Part shown: one piece after another, positions 10 to 19,797 of the stretch
How positions within the stretch are numbered: the stretch's first letter is position 1
How the letters are laid out: the number at the start of each line of letters is the position of its first letter
The notes under the pieces: generated by a model
Seen by the model: only the letters and a program-made list of their open reading frames with translations
Database searches by the model: none
Told to the model about the DNA's origin: nothing
Made by a program: the position numbers and the translations under genes
Virus record (IMG/VR): IMGVR_UViG_3300025687_000436
Location: 1 to 20,261 of that record
DNA: 20,261 bases
Reading direction: 5' to 3' (one strand)
DNA from: a virus

Positions 10-270
10 ATGGTTTGGAGTCGTTCTAAAACTACAACACGTGGCGGCAAAGCAAAATTAAAATGGCGTTGCACTTCTGGTAAGCGTAAAGGACGTATTG
101 TTCCTTCTGTTTCAGATTGCGATAAGCCAATTGACGTAGCCAAGCGTGAAAAAATGAAGCGCACAAGAGCACAAACTTACAAACAACAAGCCCGCAGAAG
201 CGAGCGTTCTAAAAAAATCAATACAGCAAGCAGACTAATACGTGCTTTAAACAAAGCACGTAAAGGTTGA
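10..270 (+). CDS. Small basic protein of unknown function, possibly cut at the 5' edge
   Basis: An 86-residue reading frame very rich in Lys and Arg, with two cysteines (about residues 21 and 37) and a run of charged helix-forming residues in the C-terminal half that suggests nucleic-acid binding. The three codons before the ATG are also open and reach the window edge, and no Shine-Dalgarno site is visible in the nine bases available, so the real start may lie upstream. The phrase KLKWRCTSG followed by a basic tail looks like a small protein I associate with marine T4-like phages, but I know no function for it. It ends just before the sigma70 promoter of the exonuclease gene. A virion core or DNA-compaction role is only a guess. 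Confidence 0.6.
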   Translation: MVWSRSKTTTRGGKAKLKWRCTSGKRKGRIVPSVSDCDKPIDVAKREKMKRTRAQTYKQQARRSERSKKINTASRLIRALNKARKG

Positions 271-295
271 CAACTACTCAACACTCTACTATAAT
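267..295 (+). promoter_or_regulatory. Consensus sigma70-type promoter before the exonuclease gene
   Basis: TTGACA at 267-272 and TATAAT at 290-295 are both exact consensus hexamers separated by exactly 17 bases. The predicted start, 7 nt after the -10 hexamer, is position 302, the A of the exonuclease ATG, so the transcript would be leaderless. This is the best host-type promoter in the window and would make the exonuclease an early gene beside late genes. Confidence 0.85.
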
Positions 296-301
296 ACCAC
301 T

Positions 302-826
302 ATGGACTTGATGTTGGACATAGAAACTTTGGGCTCTGACCCTGCTGCTGTAATTCTAAACATTGCAGCGTGTGCGTTTGATCCTTTTTCCGACACCATT
401 TACGACAAACACGCAATGTATCGTCGTATTGACACAGAGTCCCAACCTGATCGTGTTATTGAAGACTTAACTATTCAATGGTGGGCGCAACAAGGCGAAT
501 TAGCACAGGAAGAAGCATTTGGCGAAAAGGATCGTGTTCCGTTAAAAGACGCACTAGAAGAACTTAAAGGGCTAATGTGGCATGCTGAACGTATTTGGGC
601 TAACGGTATTGCGTTTGATATGACTATTATCGAACACGCATTTAAGAGTTATGATATGCCGATTCCGTGGCAGTATTACAAAGTAATGGACGCTCGCACG
701 GTATACAAAATGAGCCCAGACCGTGAAAAGTTAGGTAATAGCCATCACGCTTTTGAAGATGTTATACTACAAATTGGATTGCTACAACGTACACTTAACA
801 AGTTAAACGTTAAAAGTCTCGCATAA
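302..826 (+). CDS. DnaQ-like (DEDDh) 3'-5' exonuclease, DexA-like
   Basis: A 174-residue protein with the RNase-H-fold exonuclease motifs in order: Exo I as DIETLG (Asp6, Glu8), Exo II as ANGIAFD (Asp106), and Exo III as HHAFED (His148/149, Asp153), giving the DEDDh metal-binding set. Single-domain proteins of this kind in T4-like phages resemble exonuclease DexA and the small exoribonuclease-like DEDD family; they degrade DNA or RNA from the 3' end in the cytoplasm. The substrate cannot be told from the sequence. The start is fixed by the ATG directly after a perfect sigma70 promoter; there is no Shine-Dalgarno site. The 3' end overlaps the convergent minus-strand gene by 17 nt, so the two transcripts are complementary at their ends. 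Confidence 0.85.
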   Translation: MDLMLDIETLGSDPAAVILNIAACAFDPFSDTIYDKHAMYRRIDTESQPDRVIEDLTIQWWAQQGELAQEEAFGEKDRVPLKDALEELKGLMWHAERIWANGIAFDMTIIEHAFKSYDMPIPWQYYKVMDARTVYKMSPDREKLGNSHHAFEDVILQIGLLQRTLNKLNVKSLA

Positions 827-1218: not shown

Positions 1219-1225
1219 ATAAATA
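1219..1225 (+). promoter_or_regulatory. T4-type late promoter for the tail sheath
   Basis: ATAAATA at 1219-1225 matches the core of the T4 late promoter (TATAAATA, read by the gp55 sigma factor). By T4 spacing transcription starts near 1231, leaving a leader of about 29 nt that carries GAGGA at 1247-1251, 8 nt before the sheath ATG. Confidence 0.8.
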
Positions 1226-4568: not shown

Positions 4569-4575
4569 ATAAATA
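4569..4575 (+). promoter_or_regulatory. T4-type late promoter for the tail tube operon
   Basis: ATAAATA at 4569-4575 gives a predicted start near 4581 and a leader of about 27 nt with AGGAG at 4594-4598, 9 nt before the tube ATG at 4608. It is the only promoter seen before the gp19 to gp4 run, apart from read-through. Confidence 0.8.
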
Positions 4576-6872: not shown

Positions 6873-7301
6873 ATGGCCAAACCTAAATTCTCACAAGGAG
6901 TTTATGAAGTTCGCAACGCTAACAAATATGTAGGCAAAGGCAAACCTCGATACCGCAGTTCGTGGGAACTTGCCTTTATGAATTTCTGTGACAATAACGA
7001 ACACATATTACAATGGGCAAGTGAAAGCATTTCTATCCCATATAGACATCCATTAACAGGCAAGCAAACTATATATGTTCCTGATTTTTTTGTTGTTTAC
7101 AGAACTAAAAATAACAAACAAGTAGCAGAAGTTGTGGAAATCAAACCTAAAGGTCAGTCAATGCTAACTGAAAAGCAAAACGCACAGCAACGTGCTACGG
7201 TAGCAGTTAATTACGCCAAATGGGAAGCAGCACAGCACTGGTGTAAACGTCAAGGATTAATCTTCCGTGTAATTACTGAAGACCAAATCTTCCATCGCTA
7301 A
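6873..7301 (+). CDS. 4: Head completion protein, gp4-like, TnsA/PD-(D/E)xK nuclease fold
   Basis: In T4, gp4 (with gp2 and gp50) acts after DNA packaging to finish the head before tail joining. This 142-residue protein has the family signature SSWELAFMNFCDNN, then WASESISIPYRHPLTGK, IYVPDFFVVY and VVEIKPKG. Glu32, Asp71 (in VPDF) and Glu89-x-Lys91 fit the PD-(D/E)xK active site of TnsA-type endonucleases, so the nuclease centre looks intact. It starts 4 nt after the preceding stop without a clear Shine-Dalgarno site. Its stop codon TAA forms the first half of the TAAATA core that precedes gp16. Confidence 0.82.
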   Translation: MAKPKFSQGVYEVRNANKYVGKGKPRYRSSWELAFMNFCDNNEHILQWASESISIPYRHPLTGKQTIYVPDFFVVYRTKNNKQVAEVVEIKPKGQSMLTEKQNAQQRATVAVNYAKWEAAQHWCKRQGLIFRVITEDQIFHR

Positions 7302-7304
7302 ATA
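7299..7304 (+). promoter_or_regulatory. Late-type promoter core 5 nt before the gp16 start
   Basis: TAAATA overlaps the gp4-like stop codon (7299-7301) and ends exactly 5 nt before the gp16 ATG at 7310. With T4 late spacing the transcript would begin on the A of the ATG. The base before the core is C, not the A found in leadered promoters of this window. Confidence 0.6.
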
Positions 7305-7309
7305 TCTAT

Positions 7310-7798
7310 ATGACTAAAAAATTAGAAGCCTTATTTGATTTACCTACCTCAGATGACTCTGAATCAGAAGGTCTCGTTGAACAAGACACAGAAGAAACGT
7401 TTAATATACCGCAAACTTACGAAGGATACAGCAACCTAGAAAAGATTGATGCTGCATTACCTGCGGTTCGAGGATTAGAGGCAAGTGATAAGGAAATGGA
7501 TCAACTTGCTGAAATGGCAACTGGAACATATAAAGATTTGGTTGATCTAGGTATGAATGTAGAAGCACGTTTCAGTTCAGAAATATTCTCAGTGGCAGCA
7601 ACAATGCTTGGACACGCTATTACTGCTAAGACTGCTAAAATGAATAAAAAACTTAAAATGATTGATTTGCAGTTAAAGAAAGCAAAGTTAGATCAAGACA
7701 ACGGCGACGAAACCGGTGCAACTGCATCCGGGCATGTACTGGATCGCAACGAACTTCTCGACAAACTATTGAATCCAAATAAAAACAACGACGCATAA
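7310..7798 (+). CDS. 16: Terminase small subunit (gp16)
   Basis: DNA-recognition and regulatory subunit of the packaging motor, acting with gp17. The 162-residue length is close to T4 gp16 (164 aa). The N-terminal 60 residues are acidic and probably flexible. Residues 60-131 form long helices (KEMDQLAEMATGTYKDL, then VEARFSSEIFSVAATMLG and a Lys-rich coiled-coil-like stretch), matching the oligomerising core of T4-like small terminases. The tail is short and acidic with DRNELLDKLL. No Shine-Dalgarno site is present; the start sits 5 nt after a TAAATA core. Unusually, gp17 is not next to it but about 4.5 kb downstream. Confidence 0.82.
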   Translation: MTKKLEALFDLPTSDDSESEGLVEQDTEETFNIPQTYEGYSNLEKIDAALPAVRGLEASDKEMDQLAEMATGTYKDLVDLGMNVEARFSSEIFSVAATMLGHAITAKTAKMNKKLKMIDLQLKKAKLDQDNGDETGATASGHVLDRNELLDKLLNPNKNNDA

Positions 7799-7801
7799 AT
7801 A
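7795..7801 (+). promoter_or_regulatory. Late promoter overlapping the gp16 stop codon
   Basis: ATAAATA contains the gp16 stop TAA (7796-7798). T4 spacing places the transcript start near 7807, inside the 5' arm of the hairpin that follows. Confidence 0.75.
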
Positions 7802-7803
7802 CA

Positions 7804-7821
7804 CTTAACTCAGGAGTTAAG
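7804..7821 (+). promoter_or_regulatory. Inverted repeat covering the Shine-Dalgarno site
   Basis: CTTAACTC at 7804-7811 is perfectly complementary to GAGTTAAG at 7814-7821 with only AG between. The Shine-Dalgarno AGGAG (7812-7816) lies in the loop and 3' arm, 8 nt before the ATG at 7825. Read-through RNA from gp16 could hide this site, whereas RNA from the promoter at 7795-7801 would lack the outer part of the 5' arm. This resembles the known arrangement before T4 gene e (lysozyme). Confidence 0.65.
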
Positions 7822-7824
7822 TAA

Positions 7825-8352
7825 ATGCGCTCGCTACAAGAATTTTTAACAGAATCTAAAAAATCATATGAATACCGCATCAAGTATGTTGGTGACTTTA
7901 CAAAAGAAAAGCAAGATATCTTAAAGAATATTCTTGCTAAATTTAATCCGCAGTCATACGGTGCTATTAAAACTAGCCCTGTTATGAAATGCCCGTACGA
8001 TTTTCCAAATTATGAAAATGAATCTGTAAGCTCAATGGATGTAGTATTGGAATACCCAGCATCTACATCACAAATTATTGAATTAGCATCATCTAAGGGT
8101 TGCGACATTAATCGCTTAAAGATTATGGACAAGCGTTTCTTAGACTCAGTTGATGCAGAACACACTGCAAAAGAACACGAAGGCGCACTTTTAGATGATG
8201 CAGAGCTTCCTGCACAAACTCCAGAACAAAAAGAAGCGTCAGAAGCATACGGTAATAGTTTCCAAGATGTAGTTAGTAGTATGGAAAAACGTAAGTACGA
8301 ATTTGAAAAAGGTACTGACACAGCAACCGCTGGCATTATGGATAACAAATAA
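7825..8352 (+). CDS. Unknown protein with a capsid-targeting-like N-terminus
   Basis: A 175-residue protein I do not recognise. It begins MRSLQEFLTESKK, very close in form to the start of T4 internal head proteins (Met-Lys-x-Tyr-x-Glu-Phe-Ile-x-Glu, a capsid-targeting sequence cut by the gp21 prohead protease after Leu/Ile-x-Glu). Here LTE then Ser would be the cut. Residues 15-110 look like a compact alpha/beta domain (YRIKYVGDF, MDVVLEYPASTSQIIELAS, INRLKIMDKRF). Residues 115-175 are acidic and probably disordered. The start is supported by AGGAG and the upstream late promoter. A packaged internal protein is an inference. The next gene starts 1 nt after its stop. Confidence 0.75.
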   Translation: MRSLQEFLTESKKSYEYRIKYVGDFTKEKQDILKNILAKFNPQSYGAIKTSPVMKCPYDFPNYENESVSSMDVVLEYPASTSQIIELASSKGCDINRLKIMDKRFLDSVDAEHTAKEHEGALLDDAELPAQTPEQKEASEAYGNSFQDVVSSMEKRKYEFEKGTDTATAGIMDNK

Positions 8353-8353
8353 C

Positions 8354-9823
8354 ATGAACCTATACTCGTTGTTTGAAAAATCAAACGATAAGGCTCGTTT
8401 AGACGAGCTTCCAAAGTGGCTTACGGATAAGGCAAAAGGACTTCTTGGCAAGGACGATAAAAAAAGTTCTGAACCCAATTACGTAGACGTTGAACAAGAA
8501 AAGCAAGCAGCACAAGTTCGTGCAGCTGGCGGCAAATTTGCACAATCTACACAAGGCGAAGAACAGACAACCGGCTGTGAACCTGGCGACGATGATTGTA
8601 TTCGCAAATTGCAACATCCTCATCATCGCGGCGATGATGACCAACCAATTGTAAACCCTGAACGGAAAAAAGAATCATCGTTTCCAGACTATATGAATCC
8701 GTTTGATAAGCATCTTATGCATCATTTTAAAAGAGCTAGTTGGGTTCCAGCAGCCGCGGTAATTGTAAATGTCGCACTCGGTCCAGGTAGAAACTGGATC
8801 GAAACATACCCAGAATCTGCGTTTAGTGCAATTTATAGAGCAGCAAGATACACTGCGATTGATTGGCTTGAGAACACTATACCAACAAACAAAAATTCAC
8901 ATGCAATTATAGCAGAAGACGGAACTCAGTATTACATTCCAAATACAGAAGTGTCTAGAGAGTTATTTAACAAGGTAGTAGAAAAAGTTGGACCAGCAAG
9001 ACGTTATTGGGAAGAAGAAGGAATGTACGAAAGTATCGACTCGATGACAGAAGCAGATGTTTCGGATACTGATAAATTAACAGCAACGATTGCTGACGAA
9101 GCATATAAAAATCATCCAGAATTATTTAAAGAATATGGCGACGAATATGTTATGTCTGCAATCGATGAAGTTGCAGCACAATATATTAATAGCGATGTTA
9201 GTATTGATGAAATGCTATATGCACTAGTTGAAAAACTTGATAGCAATGATGAAATTACAGAAGGTGCTGCGACCGTATTCAGTGACGCAGTAGGACATCA
9301 TTTAAAGAACGCAGATGGAACGGTAGTACAATCGTTTCCAAAAACTGCTGAAGGATTACGTGCAGCACGTAATGCACTATACGCAAACTTTAATTCACTA
9401 AGCGTAGAAACACCTAAGGAAAGTGTTATGAAAGAATATGAAGAACAATTTAATGCAGCTCTCAATGAGTCAATGACAGTTAACACAACAGCCAGTACAG
9501 ATAACCCGGACACAGTTAACGTTACTGCTACAGATGAAGATGCACATACATTAGTTGCTATTCTAAAAGCAGCAGGTTTGCCATACAAGGAGCATGAAGC
9601 AAAAATTATTGCAGCAACTCCATGTGGAGAACAGGTTGAAGAAGAATACGCAAATGAACCTAACGAAGTAACTATGTCAACTGATTTTATGGTTAACAAG
9701 TTAGCAGGCGGCCTAAACCGTGCTAAGTCTCAGTATAAAAAGGAATATCCTGGAGATAATCCAATGGCTGTTAACGAAGAAAACTTAATGCGTGGTCTTT
9801 GGGACCTATACAAAAAGGTATAA
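8354..9823 (+). CDS. Unknown modular virion-type protein with a possible internal start
   Basis: A 489-residue acidic protein beginning MNLYSLFEKSND, 1 nt after the previous stop; an upstream in-frame ATG at 8303 would overlap the previous gene and add an unlikely N-terminus. Residues 30-110 are charged and disordered with a His/Asp-rich stretch (HPHHRGDDD). A short hydrophobic segment (WVPAAAVIVNVALG) lies near residue 135. The middle is helical. From about residue 359 (MKEYEEQFNAALNES) comes a module with AHTLVAILKAAGLPY, YANEPNE and LAGGLNRAK...GDNPMA, phrases I associate with large marine phage structural proteins. Codon ATG 9428 there is preceded by AAGGA at 7-nt spacing, so a separate 131-aa product is possible. 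Leu/Ile-x-Glu before Ser/Gly occurs at LNE-S and ITE-G. Confidence 0.72.
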   Translation: MNLYSLFEKSNDKARLDELPKWLTDKAKGLLGKDDKKSSEPNYVDVEQEKQAAQVRAAGGKFAQSTQGEEQTTGCEPGDDDCIRKLQHPHHRGDDDQPIVNPERKKESSFPDYMNPFDKHLMHHFKRASWVPAAAVIVNVALGPGRNWIETYPESAFSAIYRAARYTAIDWLENTIPTNKNSHAIIAEDGTQYYIPNTEVSRELFNKVVEKVGPARRYWEEEGMYESIDSMTEADVSDTDKLTATIADEAYKNHPELFKEYGDEYVMSAIDEVAAQYINSDVSIDEMLYALVEKLDSNDEITEGAATVFSDAVGHHLKNADGTVVQSFPKTAEGLRAARNALYANFNSLSVETPKESVMKEYEEQFNAALNESMTVNTTASTDNPDTVNVTATDEDAHTLVAILKAAGLPYKEHEAKIIAATPCGEQVEEEYANEPNEVTMSTDFMVNKLAGGLNRAKSQYKKEYPGDNPMAVNEENLMRGLWDLYKKV

Positions 9824-9825
9824 CA

Positions 9826-10077
9826 ATGGATTCTATTTACAAGATTTTAGAAAATTTAAAGTCTGTAACAGAAGCTCCTGCAAATGAGAAGCGTTATCTA
9901 GTGTCTATTGAAATGTATATGTATGCCGAAGACGATAATGCAGTACAAGCTCAAGCAGAAGATCTTGCTGAGCAGCTAAGAGATACATACGATAACCAAG
10001 CAAAGGTAATGTCAATTCATGAACAACCATTTGCAACATTAGGCAGTCGTAAATTGTTTAACAAGTTTGAAGATTAA
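9826..10077 (+). CDS. Small unknown protein of the head-region cluster
   Basis: An 83-residue protein, MDSIYKILENLKSVTEAP at the start, then one small alpha/beta domain (YLVSIEMYMYAEDDNAVQAQAEDLAEQLRD) and a short tail. The pattern of a beta strand, an acidic turn, a long helix and a strand (AKVMSIHEQ) suggests a ferredoxin-like half domain, but I cannot assign a family. The start two bases after the previous stop is favoured over an upstream ATG at 9799 inside the previous gene; AAGG lies about 8 nt before it. The N-terminal ILE and VTE-A are possible gp21-type cut sites. Its stop and the next start share one base. Confidence 0.65.
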   Translation: MDSIYKILENLKSVTEAPANEKRYLVSIEMYMYAEDDNAVQAQAEDLAEQLRDTYDNQAKVMSIHEQPFATLGSRKLFNKFED

Positions 10078-11063
10078 TGAAAAAGTTAGCCAGCTACATT
10101 AATGAATCATCTAGCCAAGTATTAAACGTTGGCAGTAAGGTTGTAATCAGCGTCAATGAAGAATATGTAATTGAAAGCAGTATTGAGAAAATTGATGAAT
10201 CTGTTACAATTACGCTTGACGCTGTTACATTAGAAGTATTAAAACACGCAAAAGCAAATCCACTAAACGAAGCTGGTAAAGTAGTCGACTTTGACCGTAT
10301 TGGTCGTTACAGCAAATGGGGTCAAGCATTACTTCAGGTACTAAAATGGTCTAGTAACCCTAAGGTTATGTCTAAGATGACAACCGAAAACGACATTGTA
10401 CTTGTTATTCAGGATCATATTTTAAATCAAATTTTAGAAAAAGAAGCTCCGGGGATTACGTCTAACCATATTGCAATGTATGCTAAAGCGATTCCAGAAC
10501 TAGATTACCAATGGGCACCTAAAAGTAAGCAACACGTAATTACGATGCCTAAAGATTTAAAACTAGCAAAGTTAGCTAGACCTGAACAGACCAAAGAAAG
10601 CGAACTAACGTTTGAAAACAATGCCTGGTATTTAAAAGTTTGGACTAGCAAACCTGTTAATAAAATTGTTGCAGAAGTTAAACAAGAAATTAAACAAGTT
10701 ATTGCAGAAGCTAAAGTAGGTAAGATGCCACTAAACTATTGGGAAGCTAACCCTGGTTCAGTATATACGGCAGACAAGTATTATGATATGTATCGTGCTT
10801 CAATGCTGATGGGACGCTTGTCTGACAAGAAGGTCAATGACGAATTTGGCGATATTGACGCATATAGTTGGATCAATAATGCTCCAATGATGGTCACATA
10901 TACTCCTGAAGAATATGAAATGGCTAGAAGAGCGTTTGCATTTATGGGGGTTCCAATGAAAGCACATGTTCCATTGGGAAGCGATGAACCAAGTGCAGTT
11001 AATAAAACTTCGCCGTTTAAACCATTTAAAGGATATAAGGGAGCGGAACGACGCTCTAAATAA
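10077..11063 (+). CDS. Unknown protein, capsid-targeting-like start
   Basis: A 328-residue protein beginning MKKLASYINESSSQ, with Ile-Asn-Glu before Ser as a possible gp21 cut. Further Leu/Ile-x-Glu sites followed by Ala are at PLNEAG (residues 62-67) and VIAEAK. A domain of mixed helix and strand spans about 70-230, and a second (ADKYYDMYRASMLMGRLSD to YTPEEYEMARRAFAFMGVPM) about 245-300. The tail is basic. The phrase PEQTKES (169-175) recurs in the 1327-aa protein at about residues 449-455, hinting at a shared module or linker. I do not recognise the family. Its ATG shares the A of the preceding stop, and the gene is followed by the structured RNA region. Confidence 0.7.
   Translation: MKKLASYINESSSQVLNVGSKVVISVNEEYVIESSIEKIDESVTITLDAVTLEVLKHAKANPLNEAGKVVDFDRIGRYSKWGQALLQVLKWSSNPKVMSKMTTENDIVLVIQDHILNQILEKEAPGITSNHIAMYAKAIPELDYQWAPKSKQHVITMPKDLKLAKLARPEQTKESELTFENNAWYLKVWTSKPVNKIVAEVKQEIKQVIAEAKVGKMPLNYWEANPGSVYTADKYYDMYRASMLMGRLSDKKVNDEFGDIDAYSWINNAPMMVTYTPEEYEMARRAFAFMGVPMKAHVPLGSDEPSAVNKTSPFKPFKGYKGAERRSK
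11057..11062 (+). promoter_or_regulatory. Possible late-type promoter for the structured RNA
   Basis: TAAATA spans the last codons of the preceding gene. By T4 spacing a transcript would start at about 11068, within the first bases of the five-hairpin region. There is only the hexamer to support it. Confidence 0.4.
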
Positions 11064-11064
11064 A

Positions 11065-11190
11065 TGTGCCTTAGGACCTTATAGGCACGGCCTGTGGCAA
11101 AATCCACAGGCGTCGTGGTGCTAACTACCATGAAGCAACTCTCGCTACCATTGCTTTTAAAGTGAGAAGCCCGTGTAAGCGGGCTTTTTT
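11065..11190 (+). ncRNA. Candidate structured non-coding RNA of five hairpins
   Basis: The 141-nt gap between genes is filled by consecutive stems. Stem 1 is GTGCCT/AGGCAC (11066-11071 with 11083-11088). Stem 2 is a perfect 8-bp GCCTGTGG/CCACAGGC (11090-11097 with 11104-11111, loop CAAAAT). Stem 3 is 7 bp with one G-U (11113-11119 with 11127-11133, 7-nt loop). Stem 4 is AGCAA/TTGCT (11134-11138 with 11151-11155). Stem 5 is the terminator hairpin. The stems abut with almost no linker, more than a terminator alone would need. There is no tRNA cloverleaf, no TTCGA arm and no ORF. It could be a regulatory small RNA or a structured 3' end protecting the upstream mRNA. Confidence 0.6.
11167..11190 (+). 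terminator. Rho-independent terminator closing the structured RNA
   Basis: AGCCCG at 11168-11173 pairs with CGGGCT at 11180-11185 (one more A-T pair possible), loop TGTAAG, then a T run to 11190. It ends transcription from the gp16 cluster and separates it from the GIY-YIG gene. Confidence 0.88.
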
Positions 11191-11193
11191 ATG

Positions 11194-11199
11194 TAAATA
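11194..11199 (+). promoter_or_regulatory. Late-type promoter core 5 nt before the GIY-YIG start
   Basis: TAAATA, preceded by G, lies between the terminator T run and the ATG at 11205 with exactly 5 nt between core and start. As there is a terminator just upstream, this gene needs a promoter here. The predicted transcript is leaderless. Confidence 0.6.
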
Positions 11200-11204
11200 A
11201 TATT

Positions 11205-11735
11205 ATGAAAATTAATGAAGTATTTCCTCCACTGGGCAAGTCTGTAAGATATAATTTTTTTGATATCTTTAGCTTTGTGCGTGTTAAGGAAAACGGAAAA
11301 TTAAAAATTTCACTGAACCGTAATCGTCCTGCTGAAACAAAACGCTCTGGCATCTATGTGTGGTATCATCCTGATTGGGGATATTTTTATGTAGGTATTG
11401 CAGCGGCGGACAACTTTACGGAACGTTGGAATAAGCATATTCAAAAACTATTAGATAACTGTTCTAGCGCAAAACAAATGAAAAACTGGAAGGTATTTGC
11501 TGACAAATTTAAAGCAGCAGGGTATGGCATTGATGACTTAAAAGATATTACATTACGTTTCTTTCCTGTAGCAAGCCGCACAGAATTTCCAGGCGAAGAA
11601 GAAGAGTTTAAAAAATATTTGTCTGATATCGAAACACGTATTGTTAGTATTATTAACCCTGCGTGTAATAAAGAATACAACCCAGAACGTCGTAGTGCAA
11701 CACGTTTCCCTACAGCAAAATTTAACGCTGATTAA
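11205..11735 (+). CDS. GIY-YIG family endonuclease
   Basis: A 176-residue nuclease-domain protein. The motif pair is GIY (49-51) and YVG (62-64), followed by the catalytic-type Arg74 in TERWNKH, and Glu143 (DIETRIVSIINP) with Asn155, as expected for the metal-binding Glu and final Asn of the family. Nothing resembling a homing-enzyme DNA-binding tail follows, so this is a compact enzyme: a stand-alone homing-type nuclease, a DNA-repair nuclease or a host-DNA degrading enzyme such as T4 DenA (also GIY-YIG). It sits between a terminator and a convergent HNH gene, overlapping the end of the latter by 14 nt. No Shine-Dalgarno site is seen. Confidence 0.85.
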   Translation: MKINEVFPPLGKSVRYNFFDIFSFVRVKENGKLKISLNRNRPAETKRSGIYVWYHPDWGYFYVGIAAADNFTERWNKHIQKLLDNCSSAKQMKNWKVFADKFKAAGYGIDDLKDITLRFFPVASRTEFPGEEEEFKKYLSDIETRIVSIINPACNKEYNPERRSATRFPTAKFNAD

Positions 11736-12264
11736 TTACAATAGGTTCTTGTTCTAGATTTAAGTATTGTGCCCAAGAAGGATGATTGATACGTATCTGA
11801 GTCTTGCGTATTGAATTTGCTAATTGGTAATAGTCCGGTGTAAATGGTGCCCGCTTAGGTTTGATTAATTTATCGCTCTTATCCCAATTACAAGGCTTAC
11901 AAGCAGTGACACAATTATCCCATTCTGTTTTACCACCGTGACTTTTTGGAACAACATGATCTATAGTTAATTGTGTAGGTGTAAAAGTATCACCGCAGTA
12001 TTGGCACTGAAACATATCTCGAATATATAGATTAGTTCTGCTAAACGTTTTTGTTTTACGTTTAGTATATCCAGACTTTAGTGCAATTACACTAGGAACA
12101 CGCATAATAGTCTTTTGACTATGAATGCTCCAATCGTCGTACCACTCAAGGACATGTACTTTGTCGAGAAATAATAATTTAATTGCTTGTTGCCAGTGGA
12201 CAGCACTAAGCGGGATATAACTTAGTGGTTGATAATCCGGACCTAAAACTAATGTATGAGCCAT
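11722..12264 (-). CDS. HNH endonuclease, bacterial free-standing type
   Basis: A 180-residue protein with a complete HNH site: zinc pair C87/C90 (FQCQYCGD), Asp102-His103 (TIDHVVPKSHGG), Asn117 (EWDNCVTAC), second zinc pair C122/C125 and Asn126. The N-terminal part (LVLGPDYQPLSYIPLSAVHWQQAIKLL) is the usual leader of widespread bacterial HNH proteins. It acts on double-stranded DNA; the target is unknown. It is the only minus-strand gene inside the late block, divergent from gp17 with only 24 bp between the two ATGs, and convergent with the GIY-YIG gene. HNH proteins beside the large terminase assist cos cleavage in lambdoid-type phages, but T4-like packaging is headful, so a homing or competition role is as likely. 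Confidence 0.9.
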   Translation of the reverse strand: MAHTLVLGPDYQPLSYIPLSAVHWQQAIKLLFLDKVHVLEWYDDWSIHSQKTIMRVPSVIALKSGYTKRKTKTFSRTNLYIRDMFQCQYCGDTFTPTQLTIDHVVPKSHGGKTEWDNCVTACKPCNWDKSDKLIKPKRAPFTPDYYQLANSIRKTQIRINHPSWAQYLNLEQEPIVINQR

Positions 12265-12266
12265 TG

Positions 12267-12286
12267 TTGTATTTACGTAAATACAA
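12267..12286 (+). promoter_or_regulatory. 20-bp perfect palindrome with divergent promoter cores
   Basis: TTGTATTTACGTAAATACAA is its own reverse complement and fills almost the whole 24-bp gap between the HNH and gp17 start codons. Each strand carries TAAATA (plus strand 12278-12283; minus strand 12275-12270) ending exactly 5 nt before its gene's ATG. It looks like a symmetric divergent late promoter or an operator for a dimeric regulator. Confidence 0.7.
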
Positions 12287-12288
12287 TT

Positions 12289-13854
12289 ATGTCTAAATCT
12301 TTAGAAGGCGTTTTAGTTAAAAAAGCACATAGCAAAATGAATTATACTTCTGAGCAAATTCAGGAGTTTGTGAAATGTGCTGATCCTACAACTGGCGCCA
12401 TTTATTTTATGGATCGTTTCTTTAATATTCAGCACCCTACCAAGGGTAAAATGATATATCATCCGTTTGAATATCAAAAAGAACTGATTAATACGTATCA
12501 TAACTATCGTTTCTCTATCTCGCTGATGCCACGGCAAACAGGTAAATCTACAAGTGCTGCTGGTTATTTGTTATGGTATGGAATGTTTAAACCGGATTCA
12601 ACTATTCTTATTGCTGCACACAAATATTCTGGTGCACAAGAAATTATGCAGCGTATTCGTTATGCGTACGAATTATGTCCTGATCATATACGAGCTGGGG
12701 TTACATCATATAACAAAGGTTCTATAGAGTTTGATAATGGATCACGTATTGTAGCCCAAGCAACTACTGAAAACACTGGACGTGGTATGTCCATTACGCT
12801 ACTCTATTGTGACGAGTTCGCTTTTGTACGACCTACTATTGCAAAAGAATTCTGGACTTCAATTTCGCCCACACTATCAACAGGTGGTAAGGCAATTATT
12901 ACCTCTACACCAAACTCAGATGAAGACCAATTTGCGTTAATTTGGAAACAGGCTAATAAAACAGAAGATGAGTTTGGCAACGAAACAGAACTAGGCATCA
13001 ATGGATTTCGTGCTTATAGATCCTACTGGAGAGATCATCCGGACAGAGATGACAAGTGGGCAGAAGAAGAACGTGGACGCATCGGCGAAGAACGCTTCCG
13101 ACGTGAAATGGATTGCGAATTTATCATTAACGATGAAACTCTTATTAATGCAACTACCCTGGTAGACATGGAAGGTATTGAACCAACATATAAAACAGGG
13201 CAAGTACGTTGGTATAAAGAGCCACAACCGGGTCGTGTGTATGTAGTAGCACTCGATCCATCGTTAGGAACAGGCGGTGACCCTGCTGCTATTCAAGTGT
13301 TTGAAGCAAATACTACAACACAAATTGCCGAGTGGAAACATAACAAAACGCCTATTCCAACACAGATACGTATTCTAAATGACATTGTAAAATCAATTTA
13401 CGAAAAAACACAAGACGGTACTTCTATATATTACTCTATTGAAAACAACACAATTGGCGAAGCAGCACTTATTAGTTTAGCAGAGTTCGGCGAAGACAAT
13501 TTTCCAGGTATGATGTTATCTGAACCTAAGTCAGCAGGATCAGGTAGACGTTTCCGCAAAGGATTCAACACTACTAACAAATCTAAGATTTCTGCGTGTG
13601 CTAAACTTAAAAACTTGGTTGAAACTAAAAAGATGATTGTTAATAGTAAGAGTTTGATTTCTGAATTTAAAACATTTGTAGCACATGGTACAAGTTATGC
13701 TGCTAAAATTGGTGAAACAGACGACTTAGTAATGGCGACTGTTCTCGCTGTGCGCATGATGCAAGTACTACAAAACTATCACGCTGAACTTAACACACAG
13801 ATTGCTGACTTTGGCGACGAAGTAATCGAACCAATGCCTTTTATAATGTTCTAG
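12289..13854 (+). CDS. 17: Terminase large subunit (gp17)
   Basis: ATPase and nuclease of the headful DNA packaging motor, docking on the portal. The 521-residue protein has Walker A PRQTGKST (81-88), Walker B LLYCDE (Asp175, Glu176), the coupling motif ITSTPN (204-209), and an RNase-H-like nuclease with Asp323 (VALDPSLGTGGDP), Glu385 (YSIENN) and Asp478/479 (ETDDLV), corresponding to T4 Asp401, Glu458 and Asp542. It is shorter than T4 gp17 (610 aa), mainly at the ends. ATG 12289 is preferred to an upstream in-frame ATG at 12256, which would overlap the HNH gene and palindrome; no Shine-Dalgarno site is present. The radical SAM gene follows after 1 nt. Confidence 0.95.
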   Translation: MSKSLEGVLVKKAHSKMNYTSEQIQEFVKCADPTTGAIYFMDRFFNIQHPTKGKMIYHPFEYQKELINTYHNYRFSISLMPRQTGKSTSAAGYLLWYGMFKPDSTILIAAHKYSGAQEIMQRIRYAYELCPDHIRAGVTSYNKGSIEFDNGSRIVAQATTENTGRGMSITLLYCDEFAFVRPTIAKEFWTSISPTLSTGGKAIITSTPNSDEDQFALIWKQANKTEDEFGNETELGINGFRAYRSYWRDHPDRDDKWAEEERGRIGEERFRREMDCEFIINDETLINATTLVDMEGIEPTYKTGQVRWYKEPQPGRVYVVALDPSLGTGGDPAAIQVFEANTTTQIAEWKHNKTPIPTQIRILNDIVKSIYEKTQDGTSIYYSIENNTIGEAALISLAEFGEDNFPGMMLSEPKSAGSGRRFRKGFNTTNKSKISACAKLKNLVETKKMIVNSKSLISEFKTFVAHGTSYAAKIGETDDLVMATVLAVRMMQVLQNYHAELNTQIADFGDEVIEPMPFIMF

Positions 13855-13855
13855 T

Positions 13856-14893
13856 ATGTTTATATTACCTTACGTAGAGTTCTATATTACTAACGTCTGT
13901 AATTACAGTTGTTCAAACTGTAATAGATTTAATAACTTTAACTTTAAAGGCCATCAAAAATGGGATGAGTTTAAAGAAGTATACGCTAATTGGGCAAAAA
14001 TTATAGATTTTCAAAATATTGGTATTTTAGGTGGCGAACCATTTCTAAACCCAGATTTTTTAAAATGGGTCATTGGAATATACAATTTGTGGCCAAATGC
14101 AGTAATTACAGTAACCACTAACGGTAGTCAATTACATAAATCTCCAGAATTTTTTAATTTATTAAAGGAAGCAAAAGGGAGAATACGTCTAGAAATTAAC
14201 CCACATGATCACGCACAGGTCCATCATATCATTGATGATATAACTAAAAATTATGATTTAGAACTATTGCACTCAAACGATAATATTAAAGAAATACAAA
14301 GATTATCTGGGTTCTGGTATTTTGTTCAGGGATATAATAACGTAAAAGACCCAACTTGGCCAAAATTAAATAGCATCGACGATTACGACAAGTTACCGAT
14401 AGAAATTATTAGAGAATGCGCTAATATACACAATTTAGAATTAAAAAATTTTTCAAATATACCTAAAAATACAATTGTTGATAAAAGTGGTGCACAGATA
14501 ATGATTGATGCAACTGATGTGTTTGTGTCGTCAACTGTAATATTTAATGGTAATAATCAACCTTTAACATTGCATGATAGTAATCCTACTAGTGCATTTT
14601 TGGTGTGCTATCACAAACAATGTCATCATTTTATTAAAGGAAAATTGTACAAATGTGGGCCAATTGCTGTTTTGCAGGAATTTATCGAACAGTTTCCGGT
14701 AGATATAAATTCAAATGATAAAGAATTATTAACATCGTATATACCAGCAGAATGTAGTTGGAGCAAAGATAAGTTAGCTAAGTTTCTAGATGATTTAGCA
14801 TATCCAATTCCCCAATGTAAGTTCTGCCCGGAGCAATTTTCTCATTATAAGTTAGATCCTAGACTGAAAAAAATAAAAATTAAACTAACATAA
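13856..14893 (+). CDS. Radical SAM enzyme with a SPASM-like C-terminal cysteine set
   Basis: A 345-residue enzyme with the 4Fe-4S motif C15-x3-C19-x2-C22 (NVCNYSCSNC), GGEP at 59-62 (ILGGEPFLNPDF) for S-adenosylmethionine binding, and strand motifs such as ITVTTNGS. The C-terminal half has further cysteines C251, C256, C267, C300, C321 and C324 (CYHKQC, YKCG, CKFCPEQF), suggesting auxiliary iron-sulfur clusters as in SPASM/twitch proteins, which modify peptides or sugars. The substrate is unknown and no small precursor peptide is obvious next to it. The DNA is visibly more AT-rich than the flanking virion genes, as is the SGNH gene downstream, consistent with acquisition. It starts 1 nt after gp17 and its stop is part of the next late promoter. 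Confidence 0.88.
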   Translation: MFILPYVEFYITNVCNYSCSNCNRFNNFNFKGHQKWDEFKEVYANWAKIIDFQNIGILGGEPFLNPDFLKWVIGIYNLWPNAVITVTTNGSQLHKSPEFFNLLKEAKGRIRLEINPHDHAQVHHIIDDITKNYDLELLHSNDNIKEIQRLSGFWYFVQGYNNVKDPTWPKLNSIDDYDKLPIEIIRECANIHNLELKNFSNIPKNTIVDKSGAQIMIDATDVFVSSTVIFNGNNQPLTLHDSNPTSAFLVCYHKQCHHFIKGKLYKCGPIAVLQEFIEQFPVDINSNDKELLTSYIPAECSWSKDKLAKFLDDLAYPIPQCKFCPEQFSHYKLDPRLKKIKIKLT

Positions 14894-14896
14894 ATA
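14890..14896 (+). promoter_or_regulatory. Late promoter overlapping the radical SAM stop codon
   Basis: ATAAATA includes the stop TAA (14891-14893). The predicted start is near 14902, with a leader of about 19 nt and a weak purine-rich GAAGAAG 4-5 nt before the ATG at 14921. Confidence 0.75.
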
Positions 14897-14920
14897 CAGT
14901 ATCGTTAACGAAGAAGAACA

Positions 14921-17900
14921 ATGGATAATACAGCAACAGACCTTTTTAATCTATTAGTCAGCCGTGACTATACCGTAAAAACACTAAACAGTCAAGGTAA
15001 ACCTGTGGTCAAACCAGAAGATGCTGAGATGTTTAGCTTTGATTTTGAAACTAAAAACAACAATTACGGTACTGTAGTTATTTTGCTCGATGATGAAAAT
15101 AACTTTGAATGTTATTATGGCGATAATGTAGGCAAAAATATCGAAGGCGAAGACAAAGATACCTGGTATGATTTTTTACTACAGCTAAAAACTTTTGCAA
15201 CACGCAACTTGTTAAGTTTCAATTTAAAGGATTTAGACAAGTTAAAGTATAGTATGCAAGGTATGGCTGCTATTAATGAAGGTTTGTTTGAGGGCTGGAA
15301 TGGAACTAAACATACTAGTTATAATAATAAACCTGGTACAACACGTTTAAAGATTGTACATAGCAAGGCAATTGAAGAAGGCGAACAACGCTTCCGCAAC
15401 ATTGAAAAGTTATATGTTGAAAACGCCGAGGGCGAACGCTTTAAGTTGCCATTTACATCATTGGTTGCTGGTCGTGCAATGGCTCGTCACGTAGCAGAAG
15501 GTGGTACACCGTACGACGTATTTGGATTACACATTGTTGAAACAGTTCGAGAAGCAAACGTGCTTGCTAAGTTTACACAAGCAACTCGGGCTATTACAGA
15601 AGAAGATGGCGAGCAGTTTGATGTAGTTGAAGCAGGTCGCGAACGCTATAAAACTCTACGTCAACGTTTAAAAAGTTTAGCAGGTAAGCGTGGATATCAC
15701 GCTTACAAAGAAAATTGGAATCCAGCAACAATTGACGAAGGTGTTGCTGATATGGATAAACTACACAAAATGTTCACACGCGAAACGATTGACTCGCGAA
15801 TTGAAGAAGCATTTCCATTTTTAGCTGCACAATTAGCAGAAGCTGGATTCGCAAACAAATTATCACCAAGCGGAAAAGTACCAGTTGGTTTATATACGTT
15901 TGTTTATAGCGTAGTAGATCCAAGCAGAGTGCAATTTATTGCTAATTCTGCTGAAAAGCGCGGCATGGCAGTAATTGCCAAAGGTAAAAACAAATTGCGA
16001 ATCGACGGCGATGCAATGCAACACAGTAGCCTAATTTATTCTTTGCAGCAATTAGGCGTCGAAGGTGAAGTAAAAGAAAAGCATACTGCGCAAATGGACG
16101 AAGGCATCTACAAGAAAGGCAAGATTGCATTTAAAATCGCCAAAGGCGTATTGAAATACTTGCCGCCGGTACTAATCGGAACATACCTGGCAGTACAAGA
16201 TGCCGAACAACAAGAAAAACGCGATGCCGAACAAAAAGCAGGATATGCACAACAATTGCAGCAACCAGAACAAACCAAGGAATCAACTATGAAAGAATTT
16301 GACAAATTTGCCAGCTGGGCAGATCACGTAACCGAAGGCACTTGGGCGTGGCCAAGAAACGATGACCAAAGTGTTAACATGGATATGATTAAAGAACTTG
16401 CTGAAATATTCCAGAGCCCAATTCCTGCAGGCGAAGATGCAATGCACGCTGCTAGTGTGTTATACAATTATATTGGTGACGACGAGTTGTTTGATAGTCT
16501 AGCAGAGGAAGCTGAAGAAAATGGTCCGAATGCTGATGTGCGTGATGTAGTATTAAATTTCTTAAACACCACTGAAGGATGGGAAGATATCGGCGAAGCA
16601 TTATCGAATGAATTAAGCAGCGGAAATTTTAACGAAGCAGAAGATTTCGGTGCACGTGGAATGAACAAATATGGTATGAGTGCTGTTAAAGGCCCTGATG
16701 GTTTCTACGCTTTAGTAAATGGCAAAGTAGTTGCTGGCCCATTTGATTCCTTAGAAGAACTAAAAGCATATCAAGAAGAAGAATTAAACAAAGATGTTAA
16801 TGAGCAATTAGACATTGATTCTGGTGAAGAACAACGCAAAGTTGAACGCGATTCGATGCTAGAAATGAATGCGTGGCGTAAACTAGCTGGTATGCAAGAA
16901 AAAGTCTATGAAGACTTTACTGCGTTTCAAGAACCACAACAGCAAGTAACAGAAAATTTTAGCGATACTCCATTGCGTGATCGAGAAGACTATTTAGAAA
17001 AAAGTAAAGCACTATATGATTTACTTCGCGATCCGAGTTTATTTGATGACGAAGAAGCACAACAGGCAATTCAACAGCGCATTTTACGTTTAAATGACGA
17101 AGCACGTGAAATGGGCTTAATTGAAATGTCCGAGACAGAGTATGCTTCTAAATTAGAACAAGATATTTTAGAAGACTGGGGTTCAAGTGACGGCACAGTA
17201 TTAGTTAAAGGTATTGACGATGCTATTGAAAAACACGGCTTAAATCCTGACGTTATTCGTCAAGCAGCAGAAAGTTTAGCTGAATTTTATGGCGAAGACA
17301 TGGGCTACGGTGATGATATTGAAGCTGCAACTGATGCAGTTCTTGACACATGGGCACGTCGTTCAGAAATTGGTAAAAGATTGGCAAAATTATTTTCAGA
17401 AGATTTAGACGAAGCAGACGCTGGTAAGTTTGGACAGCAAGACGACGAAATTATCGATCCAGATCAAATTGTTCCTGGCGATGCTGGCCCAGATGGTGGT
17501 ATGGCAGATCCAGAAGCAGCAAATAAAAAACAAATGGACGAAGCACCGCGCAGCGAACAATTACCTCCGGGTTATTCGCGTGTAGGCCCTAGGGGTGTTT
17601 TAGTAGGTCCGTCAGGTAATTTATCAAACTGGAGAGATCCAAACATGGATCCAGATTACTGGGCCAGAGATAATATGACCAAGTATGACATGGATGCCGA
17701 CAATGAATGGGACGAAATCGAAAACTGGTTAACTAGTGGTTCGTACAAGGCAGGTAACGATCTACGTAGATCAATGATGCTTAAAAAATACGGATTAGAT
17801 CAAGGCGTCACCCCAGAAAAACTAGCAAAAGCAAGAGCAAAAGCAGATGCTATCAAGAAAGCATCACAAGACAAAGAAGACAAGTTCTATAAAGACATGG

Positions 17901-18904
17901 AAATTGCTCGCATCTTAGGACGCGATGCAGGGTCTACTGCTGACCTAGAAAGAAACCGTGCCGAGACAGAAAAAGAACTCGCTGGTCTTAGAAAGAATGC
18001 TGGACTAGCTACTTCTATTAAAGCAACACCATTGAGCAAGACTGGTTCTAAGGGTTCTGTTAACGTAGGCCAAGGCTGGAGCGATCAGATGGACATCGAT
18101 GATCTAGATCGTGTGAGTGCTAAGTATGGCACTAGTCCTGCTTCAGATCAGACCGCAGCACTAGCACACCAAGAGCGTGAATTTGCTCCAGGTAGTGATG
18201 AAGCGTGGGATCAATACGTAGCGAAACACGGTAGCAAGAGCAAAGTTCCGACTACCAGAAAGATGGGTATGGACGTAATGGATCTAGGTCTAAAGGGCGA
18301 AAGCAAAGTTAGTGAAGCAGGTAAGCCAGATTATCTAGACCTAGATAAAGATGGTAACAAAAAAGAGCCAATGAAGCAGGCTGCTAAAGACGCCGAGAAG
18401 AAAGGTGATAAAGAACTTGACGAACGCTCATTAACAAAAGGCGAAGAAAAGAAACGCGAAAAGTATGTTAAGGGCATGAAAAAATCAAAAGCAGACTTTA
18501 GCAAGCGTTATGGTAAGCGTGGCGAAGAAGTAATGTACGCAACTGCTACTAAAATGGCAAAAGAAAGCGAAGGAGCAACAAACGTGTTTGGTAAAGGAAT
18601 TTATGAAAGTTTAACAGAACTTGAAGATGATTTAGATATAGCACTAGGTAATGGTATTACGGCTACTAGTCAATTAGACAAACCAAAAAATTCAGTTGGT
18701 ATGATTGAGCCAGATGATATTATTGGGGTAGCAGGTAGTTTAGATGCAGGTGAACCAGAAGGTGTAGCAGGTAGTTTAGATGCAGGTGAACCGGGTGTCG
18801 AAAAGAACTTAGGTGATAAGATTGCTGATAAAGGCGCAGAATTAAGTGCTACAATCAATAAAGCGTTATCCGATATTAAACGTTTAGCAGGAATGGGCAA
18901 CTAA
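14921..18904 (+). CDS. Large acidic modular virion-type protein, 1327 aa
   Basis: Probably a structural or packaged protein; no enzyme motif is recognised. Residues 1-110 form an alpha/beta domain; 115-230 contain AAINEGLFEGWNGTKH and LYVENAEGERFKLP, phrases I associate with large marine phage proteins. A short hydrophobic stretch (VLKYLPPVLIGTYLAV) lies near 410-425. A new unit appears to begin at MKEFDKFASWADHVTEG (457), whose ATG (16289) has AAGGA 7 nt upstream, so an 871-aa internal product is possible. The rest is Glu/Asp/Ala-rich and helical, with LAGM phrases near 648 and at the C-terminus. An EF-hand/excalibur-like loop DLDKDGNKKE lies near 1143-1152, followed by a basic unit YVKGMKKSKADFSKRYG...MYATATKMAKE. 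Near the end is a 12-residue tandem repeat. Leu/Ile-x-Glu before Gly/Ala recurs (INE-G, IDE-G, IEE-A, LAE-A, LDE-A), compatible with prohead protease processing. Confidence 0.75.
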   Translation: MDNTATDLFNLLVSRDYTVKTLNSQGKPVVKPEDAEMFSFDFETKNNNYGTVVILLDDENNFECYYGDNVGKNIEGEDKDTWYDFLLQLKTFATRNLLSFNLKDLDKLKYSMQGMAAINEGLFEGWNGTKHTSYNNKPGTTRLKIVHSKAIEEGEQRFRNIEKLYVENAEGERFKLPFTSLVAGRAMARHVAEGGTPYDVFGLHIVETVREANVLAKFTQATRAITEEDGEQFDVVEAGRERYKTLRQRLKSLAGKRGYHAYKENWNPATIDEGVADMDKLHKMFTRETIDSRIEEAFPFLAAQLAEAGFANKLSPSGKVPVGLYTFVYSVVDPSRVQFIANSAEKRGMAVIAKGKNKLRIDGDAMQHSSLIYSLQQLGVEGEVKEKHTAQMDEGIYKKGKIAFKIAKGVLKYLPPVLIGTYLAVQDAEQQEKRDAEQKAGYAQQLQQPEQTKESTMKEFDKFASWADHVTEGTWAWPRNDDQSVNMDMIKELAEIFQSPIPAGEDAMHAASVLYNYIGDDELFDSLAEEAEENGPNADVRDVVLNFLNTTEGWEDIGEALSNELSSGNFNEAEDFGARGMNKYGMSAVKGPDGFYALVNGKVVAGPFDSLEELKAYQEEELNKDVNEQLDIDSGEEQRKVERDSMLEMNAWRKLAGMQEKVYEDFTAFQEPQQQVTENFSDTPLRDREDYLEKSKALYDLLRDPSLFDDEEAQQAIQQRILRLNDEAREMGLIEMSETEYASKLEQDILEDWGSSDGTVLVKGIDDAIEKHGLNPDVIRQAAESLAEFYGEDMGYGDDIEAATDAVLDTWARRSEIGKRLAKLFSEDLDEADAGKFGQQDDEIIDPDQIVPGDAGPDGGMADPEAANKKQMDEAPRSEQLPPGYSRVGPRGVLVGPSGNLSNWRDPNMDPDYWARDNMTKYDMDADNEWDEIENWLTSGSYKAGNDLRRSMMLKKYGLDQGVTPEKLAKARAKADAIKKASQDKEDKFYKDMEIARILGRDAGSTADLERNRAETEKELAGLRKNAGLATSIKATPLSKTGSKGSVNVGQGWSDQMDIDDLDRVSAKYGTSPASDQTAALAHQEREFAPGSDEAWDQYVAKHGSKSKVPTTRKMGMDVMDLGLKGESKVSEAGKPDYLDLDKDGNKKEPMKQAAKDAEKKGDKELDERSLTKGEEKKREKYVKGMKKSKADFSKRYGKRGEEVMYATATKMAKESEGATNVFGKGIYESLTELEDDLDIALGNGITATSQLDKPKNSVGMIEPDDIIGVAGSLDAGEPEGVAGSLDAGEPGVEKNLGDKIADKGAELSATINKALSDIKRLAGMGN
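18725..18796 (+). repeat. Two tandem 36-bp copies coding GVAGSLDAGEP(E/G)
   Basis: Units 18725-18760 and 18761-18796 are nearly identical and in frame near the C-terminus of the 1327-aa protein; a 29-base core recurs exactly at 36-bp distance. It looks like a recent duplication in a flexible acidic tail and may vary in copy number between relatives. Confidence 0.92.
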
Positions 18905-18929
18905 ACCCAAGCGATATACGCTAAAATAC

Positions 18930-18960
18930 AACGGGCTTAATTAATTTAAGCCCGTTTTTT
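18930..18960 (+). terminator. Rho-independent terminator after the 1327-aa protein gene
   Basis: ACGGGCTTAA at 18931-18940 pairs with TTAAGCCCGT at 18946-18955 (one more A-T pair possible) around loop TTAAT, followed by T to 18960. The stem is AT-rich on its inner side and G/C at the base. It insulates the SGNH gene from read-through. Confidence 0.9.
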
Positions 18961-18967
18961 ATGATAT

Positions 18968-18973
18968 TAAATA
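18968..18973 (+). promoter_or_regulatory. Late-type promoter core 5 nt before the SGNH start
   Basis: TAAATA, preceded by T, lies just after the terminator and ends 5 nt before ATG 18979. This spacing is identical to that before gp16, gp17, HNH and GIY-YIG, and it argues for 18979 rather than 18961 as the start. Confidence 0.55.
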
Positions 18974-18978
18974 AACGC

Positions 18979-19797
18979 ATGAGTATTTTAGTCTCTGGAT
19001 GCAGCTATACAGAAAACGCAAAATGGGTTGACGAATTATTTACTAATGTTATTAATTACGGAAAATCTGGCGCCGGAAATACATATATATCAAATAGCAT
19101 TATCTACAATATTGATTTATTAAATCCACCATCGTATGTGTTTATATTATTTTCTGGAGTTAACAGAATTGATTTATCTGTTCCAAAAACGCTCGACACA
19201 CAAAAACTTGCAATTGAATTGAAATATTATGGAATAGTCAACGATATACTCTATTTGTTTACAGGTAGTGATAAAATCAATATACAAATATGCAGAAATT
19301 ATAGAAATATTAAATCCTTGGCCTGGCCAGAAATTTACTGTATCGACGATTTCCTTAAATTACCAAAAAAGATTAAAGATGAATGTATTGAAAAACAGAT
19401 ATTCTATTTTGGACTTGAAAATTCTGATTTAATGTCAATGATTAACACATCAATGATGTTGAATTATTTAAACGATACTAACTATCTACAAACACTTACA
19501 TATCAGAATATATTAAATTGTCAAACTTTTTTAGAACGTCATTTAATTCCTTATAATTTTAGTTTTATTAGTAACGTTTTTGATACAAATAACAAAACTC
19601 AGTTTGGGGTTCTTAACAAATCGCACCCGCTATATAAAAGAATTAATTGGAGTAATTATATCAATGATACGCCGTATGAATTTGCAGTAAAATATAATTG
19701 TTTAGCCGACGACCAGTTTCATTTATCGCATCACGGTCAACGATTATGGGCACAAAAAATACGTAATAAAATACCCAAAAAAATATTGACACGCTAA
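18979..19797 (+). CDS. SGNH/GDSL-like hydrolase family protein
   Basis: A 272-residue protein starting MSILVSGCSYTENAKW. The SGNH blocks are visible in order: GCSYT (Ser9 as nucleophile, Cys replacing the Asp of GDS), NYGKSGAGN (block II Gly), SGVNRID (Gly60-x-Asn62), and D245-x-x-H248 in DDQFHLSHHGQRLW. Such enzymes remove or transfer acyl groups on sugars and lipids, so it may act on host surface glycan or a virion glycan; the substrate is unknown. An ATG at 18961 in frame would lie in the terminator T run and before the promoter core, so 18979 is preferred. There is no signal peptide. The gene is AT-rich like the radical SAM gene, suggesting both are accessory acquisitions. It stands alone between a terminator and the gp32 promoters. 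Confidence 0.75.
   Translation: MSILVSGCSYTENAKWVDELFTNVINYGKSGAGNTYISNSIIYNIDLLNPPSYVFILFSGVNRIDLSVPKTLDTQKLAIELKYYGIVNDILYLFTGSDKINIQICRNYRNIKSLAWPEIYCIDDFLKLPKKIKDECIEKQIFYFGLENSDLMSMINTSMMLNYLNDTNYLQTLTYQNILNCQTFLERHLIPYNFSFISNVFDTNNKTQFGVLNKSHPLYKRINWSNYINDTPYEFAVKYNCLADDQFHLSHHGQRLWAQKIRNKIPKKILTR

Follow-up and report, generated by a model that had tools for sequence, protein, structure and literature searches.

Start codons at a fixed distance from TAAATA

The window, a complete IMG/VR contig of 20,261 bases and the whole stretch of DNA analysed here, raises the question of why the hexamer TAAATA stands at one exact distance before several start codons, and whether such elements could be late promoters whose transcripts begin at the start codon itself. 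In T4, the core of a late promoter is placed at -13 to -6. The first-pass annotation had read five TAAATA-N5-ATG arrangements as late promoters that give rise to leaderless mRNAs, and all five are present with the coordinates and spacers that it gave:

7299-7312, plus strand: TAAATA-tctat-ATG upstream of the gp16-like ORF; the core at 7299..7304 is a predicted T4-type late promoter (-11 to -6)
11194-11207, plus strand: TAAATA-atatt-ATG upstream of the GIY-YIG ORF; the core at 11194..11199 lies directly 3' of an intrinsic terminator hairpin and T-run
12275-12262, minus strand: TAAATA-caaca-ATG upstream of the HNH ORF
12278-12291, plus strand: TAAATA-caatt-ATG upstream of gp17
18968-18981, plus strand: TAAATA-aacgc-ATG upstream of the SGNH-like ORF; the core at 18968..18973 lies directly 3' of an intrinsic terminator

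No Shine-Dalgarno (SD) sequence is found upstream of any of the five, as had also been claimed. Their existence is secure, but they amount to only about four independent sites, because the HNH and gp17 sites each occupy one half of a single palindrome and count as one event. The hexamer itself occurs at chance level in the window (28 found against 31.6 expected), so that the signal lies in the spacing: five of the 28 are separated by exactly 5 nt from the ATG of an ORF that is 50 or more codons long, and before such ORFs the hexamer stands at none of the other spacings from 2 to 22 nt. Read backwards, the pattern has no match in the window. In-frame ATGs also lie further upstream of gp17 and of the SGNH-like ORF, at 12256 and 18961, respectively; for gp17, the start proximal to TAAATA agrees with the starts in relatives.

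The window comes from an uncultivated relative of the jumbo phages of the T4 superfamily. Its large terminase (TerL) shares 53% identity with that of PA5oct and its relatives, and 72-99% with those of 80 IMG/VR contigs, and the neighbouring genes encode a tail sheath, tail tubes, a gp4-like head-closure protein, an exonuclease and an ssDNA-binding protein. A collection of named phages contained no match to the window at the DNA level, and a host search of GTDB contigs found no relative of TerL.

Genes behind the sites and their orthologues

The following genes are predicted to be expressed from leaderless messages, two of them across a shared element:

7310..7798, plus strand: gp16-like ORF (phrog_16202)
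11205..11735, plus strand: GIY-YIG endonuclease ORF (PF01541, 4.7e-6)
11722..12264, minus strand: HNH endonuclease
12267..12286: perfect 20-bp palindrome TTGTATTTACGTAAATACAA with halves TTGTATTTAC and GTAAATACAA, holding two divergent TAAATA cores
12289..13854, plus strand: gp17, large terminase
18979..19797, plus strand: SGNH-like ORF

Two of the names assigned earlier lack confirmation: the only match of the 'gp16' ORF at 7310 is a PHROG of unknown function, and the 'SGNH' ORF matches no family. In orthologues of HNH, gp16 and gp17, motif and distance are preserved despite diverging flanks. TAAATA lies 5-8 nt before all 13 HNH starts, nine of them at exactly 5 nt, and is kept at 4-5 nt in 17 of 25 distinct gp16 starts. 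Among 36 distinct regions upstream of gp17 relatives, 19 carry TAAATA (5) or its variant TAAGTA (14) at 4-5 nt, and nine carry an SD.

The palindrome fills the 24-nt divergent gap between the start codons of HNH and gp17. Close relatives keep a near-palindrome here, and the version in the window is a perfectly palindromic, bidirectional predicted promoter. At gp16, the TAA of the core doubles as the stop codon of the preceding gene (6873-7301). In three related loci (L027 at ~2127, L031 at ~2196 and L036 at ~2773), the region upstream of gp16 reads GCGGTAAATACCGC, a perfect short palindrome that ends at the gp16 ATG and places TAAATA in the loop. Hairpin arms of this kind were considered as a general feature and rejected: of 95 near sites, 11 are surrounded by them, where 3.9 would be expected, and they are mainly confined to the regions upstream of gp16 and of radical-SAM genes. 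A radical SAM gene adjoins the large terminase in the window (13856-14893) and in relatives, and further radical SAM/SPASM-like genes of relatives are likewise of leaderless type. In the long relative G001, a 680-aa CHASE2/adenylate cyclase-like protein, identified by eye, also has a leaderless-type predicted late promoter (106039; L094).

A spacing peak in related genomes

A sharp peak at 5 nt, set against controls, had been named beforehand as the test of the leaderless reading, and relatives of the window contain it. In the 80 related IMG/VR loci, we counted distinct TAAATA sites by their spacing to the start ATG of ORFs with 60 codons or more. There are 15 sites at 4 nt, 52 at 5 nt, 9 at 6 nt and 22 at 7 nt, then a trough over 8-14 nt, with about one site per position at 8-13, and a second, broad peak at ~17-25 nt that includes 18 sites at 23 nt. 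Among ten control hexamers of equal composition in the same loci, none has a comparable peak except ATAAAT at 6 nt, which largely represents the TAAATA sites themselves. In many of the sites at 7 nt, position 5 of the spacer is a conserved A.

Each of four long relatives (G001, G006, G003 and G004) contains the peak by itself, with 10, 14, 11 and 9 sites at exactly 5 nt (Poisson P of 2e-8, 4e-16, 5e-10 and 1e-5). The start codons at this distance are ATG in 10, 14, 11 and 9 cases versus GTG or TTG in 0, 0, 4 and 1. An unsupervised scan covered every 6-mer at every offset upstream of 1,311 called genes; it ranked TAAATA at a gap of 5 just after the SD motifs (37 versus 3.6 expected), and also returned TAAGTA at a gap of 5 (12 versus 0.6) and TATAAT at a gap of 6 (16 versus 1.6). 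Among the predicted leaderless genes of these four genomes, 59 protein families are represented, and 45 of them have the late-type motif.

Leaderless-type and SD-led genes

Many TAAATA promoters precede ordinary leadered, SD-led genes, so that the predicted leaderless mode is specific to particular genes. The window itself contains such contrasting sites:

1220..1225, plus strand: TAAATA 34 nt before the ATG (1260) of the tail sheath gene
4570..4575, plus strand: TAAATA 32 nt before an SD-led tail tube gene (AGGAGA, ATG 4608)
7796..7801, plus strand: TAAATA 23 nt before an SD-led gene (AGGAG, ATG 7825)
14891..14896, plus strand: TAAATA 24 nt before ATG 14921

In the four long genomes, an SD precedes 66 of the 97 genes with TAAATA at 15-30 nt (68%), 38% of genes with no TAAATA nearby, and one of the 66 genes (2%) with TAAATA at 4-7 nt, an exclusion that is partly geometric because the hexamer fills the position of the SD; other AT-rich hexamers at a gap of 5 coincide with an SD in 2 of 29 cases (7%). 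Of the ssb orthologues, 19 of 23 are SD-led, as are all 13 of tail tube gp19. Both modes occur for the ORF at 14921: it is leadered in the subclade of the window, and of 34 distinct starts of orthologues from distant relatives, 29 have TAAATA 5-7 nt upstream.

Probable identity of the sites as promoters

TAAATA is enriched at set distances upstream of genes for terminase, for structural proteins and for other products, and several features point to a promoter. A gp55-like sigma factor is encoded in G003, G004 and G006 (phmmer to T4 gp55, 4e-8 to 1e-5), with matches to the late-sigma PHROG in G004 (E 1e-73) and G006 (E 3e-76); the window and G001, which are both fragments, yielded none. Intrinsic terminators lie just upstream of 7 of the 66 late-type sites versus 15 of 1,244 other genes, a tenfold difference (p 6e-5), and both the GIY-YIG and the SGNH-like sites of the window are so placed. 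Together with the 24-nt divergent gap and the recurrence of the hexamer 17-30 nt before SD-led genes, these observations argue that TAAATA acts as a promoter. Searches of the clade by phmmer with T4 gp33 and gp45 gave no match, which divergence may hide, and the gp45 clamp family (PF09116) matched only in the cultured Pelagibacter phage HTVC008M, not in the window clade.

The same geometry recurs in an unrelated class of promoters. Most genes with TATAAT at a gap of 6 have TTGAC or a close match ~17 bp further upstream (TTGAC-N17-TATAAT-N6-ATG), which puts the predicted +1 on the A or G that begins the start codon. The leaderless geometry is thus not restricted to late promoters. One such case lies in the window and was absent from the first-pass list:

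267..295, plus strand: consensus sigma70 promoter TTGACA-N17-TATAAT, 6 nt before ATG 302; predicted leaderless, early-type
302..826, plus strand: 3'-5' exonuclease (Rv2179c-like / phrog_255)

The exonuclease homologue of G004 likewise has a sigma70 promoter at leaderless distance. By sequence reading, the class includes a clamp-loader ATPase, an SMC-like recombination protein, a helicase and the exonuclease family.

Distribution across lineages

In a TerL tree, the window clade groups with PA5oct, GAP32 and Atu_ph07; fine placement in the tree is uncertain owing to long branches. These three phages are leadered, with no clear excess of sites at 5 nt (for PA5oct, five sites, P 0.05). T4 has its TAAATA peak at 28 nt, and 4-8 nt is not above background. 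By contrast, 12 sites in HTVC008M lie at exactly 5 nt (P 1e-10), and Mosig has a weaker peak of six sites (5e-4). IMG/VR relatives of HTVC008M contribute 24 distinct 5-nt sites, among them one before a 510-aa gene recognized, by eye only, as that of the portal. The lineage of HTVC008M and Mosig is placed together with T4 and the cyanophages and away from the window clade, and so at least two lineages acquired or retained the geometry. Late promoters are reported not to have been found when pelagimyophages were surveyed with the methods used for cyanophages (PMC7029224); promoters immediately before start codons would fit this failure, and the present geometry offers a reason for it.

A phage-encoded ribosomal protein bS21 was considered as the cause of the geometry and rejected. 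The gene is present in G001, G002, G003, G008 and HTVC008M, but also in the leadered PA5oct and Atu_ph07 and in Phosso and Vibrio 2.275.O, neither of which has an excess of the N5 pattern, and it was not detected in the leaderless-type G004; there is therefore no clean association. In G001 (~98968-99200; L223), the bS21 gene is itself preceded by TAAATA-N6-ATG. Large tRNA sets occur in G006 (~32 genes; L101, L102) and G003 (~26 genes; L119, L120), and these two genomes also encode permuted tmRNAs with the tags ANDEVYALAA and ANDELYALAA.

Mechanism and alternative explanations

We consider it probable that a subset of late promoters is phased onto start codons and yields leaderless mRNAs to whose AUG the ribosome binds directly. 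TAAATA, or its variant TAAGTA, would be the -10-like core of a T4-type late promoter, recognized at -11 to -6 by RNA polymerase that carries a gp55-family sigma factor. In a gene-specific subset, the +1 would fall on the A of the ATG or within ~1-3 nt of it; sites at 4, 6 and 7 nt, which exist beside the modal 5, require either a sliding start site or a leader of 1-3 nt. The resulting messages would be translated without an SD by ribosomes that bind the 5'-terminal AUG, a route reviewed in PMC9031893. Other late promoters, 17-35 nt upstream, would serve ordinary SD-led genes, and some sigma70-type promoters of these phages would be phased in the same way as the leaderless subset. Motif, spacing, conservation, exclusion of the SD and the presence of gp55 are observed directly. 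From them, activity of the promoters and the 5' ends of the transcripts are inferred, so that the sequence strongly implies the step of transcription; the mode of translation is the less firm part. The core of the first-pass interpretation is supported and stands on these grounds. It is broadened by the early promoters, the second lineage and TAAGTA, and corrected in two points: about four of the sites are independent, and leaderless-type and leadered late promoters exist side by side.

TAAATA-N5 might instead be a translation-initiation element, an A/U-rich site for the ribosome or S1, on longer polycistronic mRNAs and no promoter at all. That 55 of the 66 genes lie behind a codirectional gene, often less than 20 nt away, and that leaderless-type genes lack an SD would suit such an element, but 17-30 nt before SD-led genes, where TAAATA also occurs, is an impossible position for it. 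Several sites directly follow terminators or sit inside the 24-nt divergent gap, sigma70 -35/-10 promoters share the +1 geometry, and the clade encodes a gp55 sigma factor; base-exact spacing, moreover, suits the geometry of a transcription start more than an S1 site. We consider this explanation unlikely. Nor does it seem at all likely that transcription starts a few nucleotides upstream, with leaders of 1-5 nt and 5'-end or 70S initiation: the sites at 6-7 nt, and the A conserved in many of those at 7 nt, would agree with it, but the modal spacing of 5 corresponds to T4 geometry on the A, and the sigma70 cases too fall on the A or G of the start codon.

Coupling of stop and start, in which the preceding gene would end with the TAA of TAAATA and translation restart 8 nt downstream, is positionally true for gp16 in the window and for 11 of the 66 late-type sites of the four genomes. 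At the other 55 sites TAA is not a stop, 11 of the 66 are divergent from the neighbouring gene, and two window sites are preceded by terminators. As a general cause we rejected coupling, which covers at most 11 of 66 sites and is very unlikely to explain the pattern; it may contribute at gp16. Finally, the mRNAs could be leadered, with their true promoters at a greater distance and the 5-nt TAAATA arising by chance in DNA that is AT-rich and in which the hexamer is not over-represented overall. Against this, control hexamers of equal composition have no 5-nt peak, Poisson P reaches 4e-16, and PA5oct, T4, GAP32 and Atu_ph07 are equally AT-rich and have no peak, so that chance is hardly a credible account.

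Phasing of a late-promoter subset onto start codons, if true, would make translation of chosen late genes independent of SD pairing, and their response to initiation factors, kasugamycin and host shut-off could differ. A wider and distinctly more tentative proposal is that two T4-superfamily lineages independently built a genome-wide leaderless channel, with late (gp55) promoters phased onto starts in both and early (sigma70) ones in one of them. Terminase, homing endonucleases and some structural and replication genes would then escape SD control, with phage-altered ribosomes or large tRNA sets possibly helping. For annotation, the 5-nt geometry improves the assignment of start codons in these genomes, and HTVC008M and Mosig on Ca. 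Pelagibacter ubique HTCC1062 provide cultured test systems.

Comparison with known promoter systems

The predicted leaderless geometry is a novel variant of a known promoter system, that of T4-type late promoters. In literature on leaderless messages together with T4-like phages, cyanophages or Pelagibacter, the arrangement was not found, the sources being mainly titles and abstracts with thin coverage of subscription journals, so that prior reports are possible. T4 late transcription is a textbook system in which gp55, gp33 and gp45 act at the motif TATAAATA, and the late messages of T4 and of cyanophages are leadered and SD-led. The window clade resembles T4 in the TAAATA core, in the gp55-family sigma factor of the window's relatives and in the packaging and structural genes downstream. 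It differs in that the T4 motif lies mostly 28 nt before the ATG, whereas a large subset in the window clade lies at 5 nt; in addition, the clade does not conserve the 5' TA of TATAAATA, accepts TAAGTA, and has no detected gp33 or gp45. The cyanophage late promoters of S-PM2 and Syn9, with the motif NATAAATA (PMC2984593), share motif and T4-superfamily context, but spacings in Syn9 are 20-28 nt with none at 5, and P-SSM2 is mostly leadered. A sharp 5-nt peak is shared by HTVC008M and the pelagimyophages, a separate T4-superfamily lineage that differs from the window clade by an extended motif, ATAAATAGTA, and by having no sigma70-type leaderless peak. Leaderless genes are common in bacteria such as Mycobacterium (reviewed in PMC9031893), and there too the promoter -10 element abuts the start codon and the SD is absent; those promoters use host sigma factors, whereas a phage late-sigma motif is additionally predicted to act here. 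Among phages, the cI mRNA of lambda is leaderless (PMC9031893), but it concerns one gene, in contrast to the genome-wide promoter arrangement predicted here.
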